DNA from: Phycisphaerales bacterium Planc_01
GTDB lineage: Bacteria; Planctomycetota; Phycisphaerae; Sedimentisphaerales; Anaerobacaceae
Length of the DNA: 53,080 nt
NCBI GenBank assembly: GCA_001603075.1
Contig: LVBB01000060.1
Span: 1 to 53,080, forward strand
Direction: 5' to 3'
Part shown: positions 41,896 to 43,259 of the stretch, piece after piece
How positions within the stretch are numbered: the first letter of the stretch is position 1
How the letters are laid out: the number at the start of each line of letters is the position of its first letter
The notes under the pieces: generated by a model
Told to the model about the DNA's origin: nothing
Databases searched by the model: none
Seen by the model: only the letters and a program-made list of their open reading frames with translations
Program-made: the position numbers and the translations under genes

Positions 41896-42079
41896 CGGAA
41901 ATATACGCCGGTCTGCGACGCGGGTTCTGGCTGCCGCACCGCGTTGGAACGCCAGGGTTCCCGCCGACGCGGATGTCCAAATCTGCCCCACAGGCCATAT
42001 CGGACCTTTCGGTGGATGCGGTCTGGGCCGTGTCACGCCGAGTATTACGGCTCGGCGATGCCGTAAGCTAATGTAAAAC

Positions 42080-42105
42080 AATCACTTATGTATACACTGG
42101 TGATT
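42080..42105. promoter_or_regulatory. 26-bp two-part symmetric dyad upstream of a promoter
   Basis: AATCAC (42080-42085) mirrors GTGATT (42100-42105), and the inner TGTATACA (42089-42096) is a palindrome with exactly the same centre. Twenty of 26 positions are symmetric. The centre is about 55 bases before the predicted start, a usual position for a transcription activator. Confidence 0.55.
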
Positions 42106-42111
42106 TTCTTC

Positions 42112-42141
42112 TTGCCATGGAGCATCCGTTTCGGCTATAAT
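42112..42141 (+). promoter_or_regulatory. Strong sigma70-type promoter with no annotated gene downstream
   Basis: TTGCCA at 42112-42117, an 18-bp spacer and a perfect TATAAT at 42136-42141. The predicted start is near 42148. The next gene (folP) is on the opposite strand, so this promoter must serve a short transcript. Confidence 0.75.
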
Positions 42142-42185
42142 ACACACGTCGAAGTTGATGGAAACTTGGGGGGCAGAAACGAACC

Positions 42186-42281
42186 ATGAACAGCTTCTAT
42201 TACGAAACGTGGCTTCCGTTTGTCATCAGCAAGAGACGCATCCTTGTTCTGGCCATTGCCAGCTACCTTGCTCTGTGCTGA
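42186..42281 (+). CDS. Candidate 31-aa hydrophobic small protein
   Basis: An ATG 38 bases after the predicted transcription start opens a 31-codon frame. It has an aromatic N-terminus (MNSFYYETWLPF), a basic centre (SKRR) and a hydrophobic tail (ILVLAIASYLALC), so a single membrane-associated segment is possible. Translation signals are not ideal, with a run of six G about 12 bases upstream. Alternatives are a truncated signal-peptide remnant or a non-coding RNA. No homologue is recognised. Confidence 0.35.
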   Translation: MNSFYYETWLPFVISKRRILVLAIASYLALC

Positions 42282-42407
42282 GCGGTTGACCAATCGCAGG
42301 CAGCCAGGACAAGTTTCCAGTGGCTGCGATCCGCAAGTTCCGTGCGGGTCGAACAATGCAGGATTGCCGCGTCGTAAGCCGATACCCTTCTGATCAAAAG
42401 CACAGAC

Positions 42408-43259
42408 TCAACATTCCCGGACTGCTCGAACGACCCTGAGCACGTCCTGCATCGGCGCAACATCGTGGACCCGCACGACAGAGACCCCCGCCGCCGCACA
42501 CATCGCCACCGTTGCCGCCGTGCCGAAGAGGCGATCAGGCGGCTCAGCACGCCCGGTAATCATCCCAATAAACCGCTTGCGACTGGTGCCGACCAGTACC
42601 CGATAATCTGTCGATACGAATCGTCCTATGTGCTTTATCAGTATAAGGTTATGGTCAACGGTCTTGCCGAACCCGATCCCCGGGTCGATCCAGATTCGCT
42701 CGCTGGCGATACCGAGTGATTCGGCCCGCCTGGCCCGCGTCAACAGGAAGTGCAGGACCTGCCCAACCACATCGTCATACGCCGGGTCGGCCTGCATCGT
42801 CCGGGGTGTTCCCTGCATGTGCATCAGCACGACCGGGACCTGCATTTCGGCCGCCAACTCGGCCATGCCATCGTCGGCCAGGGCGGTGATATCGTTGAGG
42901 ATCGACGCGCCGGCCTCCAATGCCGCCCGCGCCACCGCGACGTCGCAGGTATCGACGCTGATCGGAACATCGACCTGATGCGCCAATGCTTCGATCACCG
43001 GAGCCACGCGACGAATCTGCTCCGCCGCCGGGACCGCAGCGGCGCCGGGCCGGGTGGATTCGCCCCCGATGTCGATGATGGCTGCCCCCTGTGAAGCCAT
43101 CTCCAGGCCGCGCGCGACGGCCTTGCTGACATCGAGGAATTGGCCCCCGTCGCTGAAGGAGTCGGGCGTGACGTTGAGAACTCCCATTATCAGACAACCC
43201 GCGGAGAAGTCCAGACGGCCACTGGGCCACTGTAGCATGTCGTCAGACGTCGTCTTCAC
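42408..43259 (-). CDS. folP: Dihydropteroate synthase
   Basis: A 283-aa TIM-barrel enzyme joining 6-hydroxymethyl-dihydropterin pyrophosphate and p-aminobenzoate in folate synthesis. All signatures are present: NVTPDSFSDGG, GGESTRPGA, VSIDTC-like SVDTCDVAVA, DPGIGFGKT and GTSRKRFIG. The start at 43259 overlaps the pdxB end by 17 bases; an ATG at 43238 is also possible. It is the last gene of the amrS-pdxB-folP run. No clear terminator was seen. Confidence 0.96.
   Translation of the reverse strand: MKTTSDDMLQWPSGRLDFSAGCLIMGVLNVTPDSFSDGGQFLDVSKAVARGLEMASQGAAIIDIGGESTRPGAAAVPAAEQIRRVAPVIEALAHQVDVPISVDTCDVAVARAALEAGASILNDITALADDGMAELAAEMQVPVVLMHMQGTPRTMQADPAYDDVVGQVLHFLLTRARRAESLGIASERIWIDPGIGFGKTVDHNLILIKHIGRFVSTDYRVLVGTSRKRFIGMITGRAEPPDRLFGTAATVAMCAAAGVSVVRVHDVAPMQDVLRVVRAVREC

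Follow-up and report, generated by a model that had tools for sequence, protein, structure and literature searches.

The window, by which we mean the whole 53,080-nucleotide stretch of DNA analysed here (a contig of Phycisphaerales bacterium Planc_01), contains a 31-codon open reading frame preceded by a promoter and two overlapping inverted repeats and followed by a convergent gene (Table 1). An initial annotation, made from the letters alone, had read the segment as either a regulated small membrane protein or a small RNA. Comparison with relatives argues for the protein. It also moves the probable control site from the inverted repeat singled out at first to a second, conserved dyad that begins further upstream.

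Table 1 Features of the microprotein locus, in coordinates of the window.
Feature	Position	Strand	Basis or remarks
Conserved dyad, window copy TAAGCTAATGTAAAACAATCACTTA	42064..42088		10/14 matches to consensus TAAGTGC-N11-GCACTTA; presumed activator or repressor site
Two-part dyad of the initial annotation	42080..42105		AATCAC-N4-GTATAC-N4-GTGATT; overlaps the right arm of the conserved dyad
Sigma-70-type promoter TTGCCA-N18-TATAAT	42112..42141	+	11/12 matches; form and position kept in relatives
5' leader	42142..42185	+	G-run GGGGGG at 42168-42173, present in all six aligned genus members
31-codon ORF, TGA stop, Cys-tailed microprotein	42186..42281	+	Conservation, class-wide matches, codon statistics
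Inverted repeat 3' of the ORF	42293..42330	+	Without T-run; not conserved
Hairpin named in the initial annotation	42328..42350	+	8 pairs, one G-T; without T-run; not conserved
Convergent neighbour, folP-like	42408..43259	-	ORF list; separate from the microprotein gene

Coding evidence for the 31-codon frame

Protein searches with the 31-residue product matched 82 of 99 genomes (the window's own genome counted), with a single match in 80 of these 82. Two genomes, G053 and G077, have two strong matches apiece, on different contigs. The DNA of positions 42060-42410 matched 34 of the 99 genomes, again counting its own, and outside the closest relatives these matches were mostly reduced to the ORF; in other genomes they end at query positions 213-225, close to the stop codon at query 220-222.

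The frame was located in each of 81 order-level loci (the window and 80 others), and all loci were scored across the same 31 columns. Not one of the 81 shows an indel. K16 and L22 are kept in all 81, Y5, F12 and C31 in 80, A29 in 79, and W9, P11 and Y27 in 78. The reading ends in Cys-stop at 80 loci and in Leu-stop at the sole exception, L079. Column 1 is other than Met in 16 loci, where the start lies one or a few codons away; this column was left out when pS and pN were computed. Stop codon usage is mixed (TAA 37, TGA 35, TAG 9), and pairwise differences at codon positions 1, 2 and 3 are 0.27, 0.19 and 0.58, the third varying most. Comparison with five genus members gives pS/pN values of 0.195/0 (closest relative), 0.238/0.014, 0.443/0.029, 0.746/0.063 and 0.711/0.167. 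Because the columns are free of indels, the stops vary, pS far exceeds pN and the third positions are variable, selection acts at the level of the protein. From these codon patterns it is nearly certain that the 31-codon frame, as marked in the initial annotation, is a real protein gene with its codons under purifying selection.

The same statistics bear on the other reading proposed at the outset, a small regulatory RNA in which the ORF is incidental. A short transcript between promoter and terminator would suit such an RNA, as would the leader motifs conserved in one family of the order; the dominance of third-position changes and the low pN, however, largely refute it. When codons are weighed against RNA structure in relatives, a comparison that had been suggested as a check, the codons prove conserved and the RNA structure does not: the protein is kept although wobble positions change. 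The ORF yields no consensus fold (alignment energy 0 for 40 of the 79 distinct ORFs, a value that makes a synonymous-shuffle control of the consensus fold uninformative), leaders fold like their shuffles (mean z 0.06), and Rfam returned no matching family. Single-sequence folding of the ORF does lie slightly below synonymous shuffles (mean z -0.43), too little to carry an RNA reading to which we give next to no credence.

Transcription signals, conserved dyad and gene neighbourhood

The promoter proposed for the window has counterparts throughout the order. Matches of at least 9/12 occur within 130 nt in 68 of the 81 loci, compared with a mean of 16.6 (maximum 24) in shuffles that, here and for the dyad and leader, preserved base composition only. 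The best -10 element is exactly TATAAT in 54 loci, and the median distance from promoter to frame is 52 nt. In the leaders, GGGG lies at most 40 nt before the start in 37/81 loci (17.8 in shuffles). Two further leader features were observed: GGCTTC appears in 17/81 loci compared with 0.7 in shuffles, and the leaders of L077, L092 and L094-L099, from one family of the order, share a near-identical ATGGCTTCGGTCATG with a C-UUCG-G hairpin followed by a G-run.

Downstream, a terminator made of a hairpin and T-run was found in 64 of the 81 loci, compared with 5.4 in control windows (maximum 10), with the hairpin at a median of 51.5 nt past the stop across the set. A hairpin with a T-run was seen in none of the six genus members, window included. 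The hairpin noted earlier at 42328-42350 does form in the fold, but it is not kept in relatives, and with no T-run it was rejected both as a terminator and as an RNA element; taken overall, the segment 42145-42407 is not more stably folded than its shuffles (z -1.06).

A tail, TTTTTTTATGCGC, was considered as a mark peculiar to the microprotein gene and rejected, since it trails other hairpins in the same genomes. Twelve genomes together contain 52 matches, each having it at several places, compared with 1 for the reversed control string, and a terminator-like hairpin precedes it at 15 of 20 retrieved sites (L289-L308); L055, L112 and L118 are examples downstream of the ORF. The ATGCGC tail after the T-run seems to be a general terminator-associated mark in the order.

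Upstream of the promoter, the initial annotation had placed a 26-bp two-part dyad at an activator-like distance. This inverted repeat is present, centred on 42092/42093, and its pattern, even with 3 mismatches allowed, matches nowhere else in the window and in none of 100 shuffles, the pattern having been drawn post hoc from the site itself. Its palindrome is intact, however, in just one of six aligned genus members, the window; the closest relative reads AATCCTTTATGTGCATATTGGTGATT. We therefore reject it as a conserved operator. Loss of both frame and dyad in close relatives had been named as an outcome that would speak against the original reading: the named dyad is lost, but the frame is kept.

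A second dyad, which starts 16 nt upstream of the first and has only an ACTTA stretch in common with it, is conserved across the order. ACTTAY occurs upstream of the 68 promoters in 24 loci (4.2 in shuffles), lying 27-28 nt ahead of the -35 element in 19, and exact inverted-repeat arms of at least 7 were found in 13/68 loci compared with 4.75 in shuffles, several of them sharing one form. The right arm of the consensus TAAGTGC-N11-GCACTTA ends 22-23 nt before the -35 element. With the geometry fixed, at least 9/14 positions match in 46 of 68 loci (0.6 in shuffles) and at least 10 in 37 (0.05), the consensus having been derived from the same loci that were then scored. Alternative spacings of 13-17 and 19-24, in place of 18, gave 0 to 17 of the 68 loci at the threshold of 9 and at most 8 at that of 10. 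The flanks prolong the symmetry, giving a consensus of about CGTAAGTGCTT-N7-AAGCACTTACG, and arm-to-arm complementarity is just slightly over column expectation. Scores within the genus are weak (10 of 14 for the window; 8, 9, 9, 10 and 4 for its relatives), and class loci from other orders give no clear sign of the dyad: 2/40 of them reach at least 11, against a background of 0.3.

The dyad would be bound by a dimeric regulator. The position of its centre, about 36 nt ahead of the -35 hexamer or about -71 from the presumed start, makes an activator most likely; a centre at such a distance is usual for activators that contact polymerase from upstream. The activator-like position claimed at first is true of the conserved dyad but not of the named one as a conserved site. 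Judging from these alignments, regulation through the conserved dyad is very likely in the order; we are less sure of it for the degenerate copy in the window.

One genome, G044, has 11 dyad sites at no more than 1 mismatch, compared with 1 for a control pattern, and ten of them lie away from the microprotein gene. The 17 other genomes scanned have 13 sites and 3 control matches; three sites overall, G044 included, are microprotein loci. The dyad's regulator may therefore govern more genes in G044. Three G044 sites of the L344-L353 set have a similar promoter-like pair, GTGTCA-N16/17-GATA[AG]T, 38-40 nt off, which hints at a regulon and perhaps at an alternative sigma factor. Ten proteins encoded beside dyad sites (nine in G044, one in G041) were compared with Pfam: six have no family below 0.001, and the remainder include VTC, PEP-CTERM twice (once with Laminin_G_3) and a DksA zinc finger. 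A common regulon theme was sought among the ten and none was found.

The genes around the frame change from group to group. The opposing gene, which we take, with the earlier naming, to be folP, is found in 4/81 loci, all in the window's genus (the window and three more of its six members). Genes that we presume to be tatA and tatC adjoin the frame in the window, and a TatC-like cluster (C5) is seen in 12/81 loci. An epimerase cluster (C0), presumably HldD-like as judged by eye from its sequence, occurs in 41/81 loci, in 40 of which its ORF comes next on the same strand, mostly 110-290 nt off. Neighbours differ again in other orders, where a gene that looks Fur-like by its sequence accompanies 9 of 40 class loci. 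At L161, L166, L169, L176, L177, L180 and L187 this opposing gene is the next ORF, end to end with the microprotein gene.

Short ORF, terminator and downstream gene, in that order, are also the layout of an attenuator, in which a ribosome on the ORF would control the gene behind the terminator, in many relatives the epimerase. The 40 loci with C0 next on the same strand fit this, as does conservation that extends to the stop codon. The other 41 loci, however, have a different next gene or none within reach, an opposing gene comes next in the window and three more of its six genus members, downstream genes are different in other orders, and it is the entire protein that is conserved, not just its end. 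We consider a leader peptide improbable. Having its own promoter, mostly its own terminator and varying neighbours, the microprotein gene stands alone.

Distribution in the order, class and phylum

With a profile built from the order (A1), matches were obtained in 144 of the 397 class genomes, 85/95 in the order and 59/302 elsewhere; all 59 out-of-order matches align through the last profile position. Forty of these 59 were retrieved as first-round class loci. All 40 end in Cys-stop with the same spacing between basic residue and Cys, in a motif that is roughly RRKx[RK]IxxL[AT]xx[TS][YF]xA[LM]C-stop; an automatic recheck passed 39, and L164 fell short only on what may follow the basic residue, yet ends in Cys-stop. 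A wider profile (A2) matches 251/397 class genomes: the same 85/95 in the order and 166/302 elsewhere. In a phylum-wide sample of 392 genomes, A2 matches 23/41 class members and 2/351 others; the alignments of the latter two both stop short of the last profile position, the C terminus. The order, class and phylum splits for both profiles were read off kinship-ordered listings, and E-values are per genome, with about four chance hits expected over 397 genomes at 0.01. At that threshold 136/302 out-of-order class genomes have no match, which either sensitivity or absence may explain.

As a held-out check, 20 class hits unused in A2 were inspected, and all 20 have the cysteine followed immediately by a stop. 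The profile contains no stop, and the chance of one at that place is about 1 in 20 per locus. The 20 span 14 genera, three come from a genus already represented among the A2 rows, and they represent the stronger hits only (E 1.2e-11 to 4.1e-8). A pattern scan of 84,980 named genomes, one per species, used the order form of the sequence, which puts distant members out of its reach; it found 76 loci titled as planctomycetes and two titled just 'uncultured bacterium'. The titles include Planctomycetota, Phycisphaerae, Phycisphaerales, Sedimentisphaerales, Planctomycetales, Anaerohalosphaeraceae and uncultured planctomycetes; going by them, we equate the order with Sedimentisphaerales and the class with Phycisphaerae.

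No match was found in ten of the 95 order genomes; three of the ten (G062, G067 and G071) are nearly complete and assembled as single contigs. At E up to 10, the places listed for these ten and for two further class genomes include no Cys-stop frame of the family form. The microprotein gene can therefore be lost, or diverge past detection. The three single-contig genomes belong to one family of the order, of which other members, G075 and G079, carry the gene.

Taking position, signals and distribution together, the locus is best explained as a free-standing gene, under regulation, that encodes a 31-residue microprotein present across much of the class Phycisphaerae. The gene is present in 251 of 397 class genomes and yet unannotated, which implies that a piece of conserved planctomycete membrane biology has probably been missed; 31 codons is shorter than gene finders usually accept.

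Membrane reading of the microprotein and comparison with known systems

The basic centre and hydrophobic tail described in the initial annotation are both there. Residues 16-18 are basic (K16-R17-R18), residues 19-31 are strongly hydrophobic, and the net charge is +2 to +6 in all 81 loci. AlphaFold predicts a single helix over residues 3-30 (mean pLDDT 81, pTM 0.35), and a structure search gave 0 matches, as expected of a lone helix. The claim that no known gene is involved also held in family searches: there was no significant profile match for 19 members in Pfam (best E 0.2) or NCBIfam (0.096), no family for 40 members in PHROGs (best E 0.025) or PADLOC (none), and none in the PDB (1.4). In a search of the open literature, nothing on the microprotein appeared among the matches listed.

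Hydropathy, charge and predicted helix agree in giving a hydrophobic helix with a basic flank, the form of a small single-helix membrane protein. Our best reading, built on sequence and a structural model, is a membrane microprotein of one helix, under regulation and ending in a cysteine, its location, topology and function all being read from these features. In substance this upholds the first of the two original readings, in that the gene and a conserved dyad are supported; the dyad then named as its site is not, and the membrane location is a prediction.

The peptide would form a single inner-membrane helix that has the K16-R17-R18 collar on the cytoplasmic side, runs into the membrane with residues 19-31 and carries the thiol and carboxylate of Cys31 at its distal end. 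Since 13 hydrophobic residues are short for a full crossing, the helix may instead be half inserted or lie along the membrane surface. The microprotein may pack against a larger membrane partner and present its terminal cysteine to it. We are evenly divided on whether it is such a small accessory or regulatory subunit, with a partner encoded elsewhere than next door. A more specific proposal, which we put forward tentatively and consider rather doubtful, is that the cysteine, with its free carboxylate and at a fixed 13 residues from the collar, serves as a ligand, as a redox site or as an acceptor for lipid, in a protein that is produced when needed under the control of its own conserved regulator. 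We know of no other family with a bare terminal cysteine on a membrane helix of about 30 residues that is kept class-wide in bacteria. The almost invariant terminal cysteine, the collar and the control site offer separate testable handles on this biology.

A basic start, a short hydrophobic stretch and a cysteine are also the parts of a type II lipoprotein signal. Some peptide pheromones arise from lipoprotein signal peptides, and the ORF might be nothing but such a signal, with the cleaved peptide or the lipidated cysteine as its product. The 13-residue distance from collar to cysteine and the net positive charge resemble such signals; a comparison set drawn from the group's own lipoproteins gave 20 candidates, too few and too mixed to use and contaminated by one family. 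In a lipobox, however, the residue preceding the cysteine is Gly, Ala or Ser. In the microprotein this residue is Leu in 65 and Met in 16 of the 81 loci, and no mature protein follows downstream. We give this explanation little credence.

Type I toxins such as Hok, TisB and Ibs are of comparable size and hydrophobicity. The microprotein resembles them in these respects and in having its own promoter and terminator, so a small hydrophobic peptide silenced by antisense RNA has to be weighed against the membrane-subunit reading. Size, hydrophobic tail and a monocistronic layout with a strong promoter would all suit a toxin. Antisense promoters are not in excess over shuffles, however: antisense matches of at least 10/12 occur in 3/81 loci compared with 3.6 in shuffles, and of at least 9 in 15 compared with 22.8. 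Unlike such toxins, the gene is mostly single copy (as counted above for the 82 positive genomes) and present class-wide, and PADLOC had no match. A toxin has, in our judgement, a slim chance.

The single-helix membrane microprotein finds its nearest likeness in CydX, KdpF and AcrZ, which have about 30-40 residues, one hydrophobic helix, few key residues kept, and are often unannotated. KdpF and AcrZ are single-helix accessory subunits of membrane complexes. To our knowledge, the conserved terminal cysteine has no counterpart in CydX-type subunits. CydX is described as going with cydAB (PMC4325964), and in this the microprotein differs, as no operon partner accompanies it consistently. Among the genomes searched, PF01654 (cytochrome bd subunit I) was present in 0/12 carriers of the gene and 2/10 non-carriers; cytochrome bd thus does not follow its distribution, and the microprotein is not a CydX. 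TatC (PF00902) does not follow it either, with 9/12 carriers and 8/10 non-carriers, and the TatC-like cluster accompanies few of the loci, so a role as a Tat accessory was likewise rejected. The main text describing the global small-protein catalogue GMSC (PMC11364881) does not contain 'Planctomycet-', 'Phycisphaer-' or 'cysteine'; catalogues of this kind may hold these sequences as anonymous clusters. We rate the microprotein as a new family within the familiar general kind of tiny membrane proteins, set apart by its unusual reach, its terminal cysteine and its dedicated control site.
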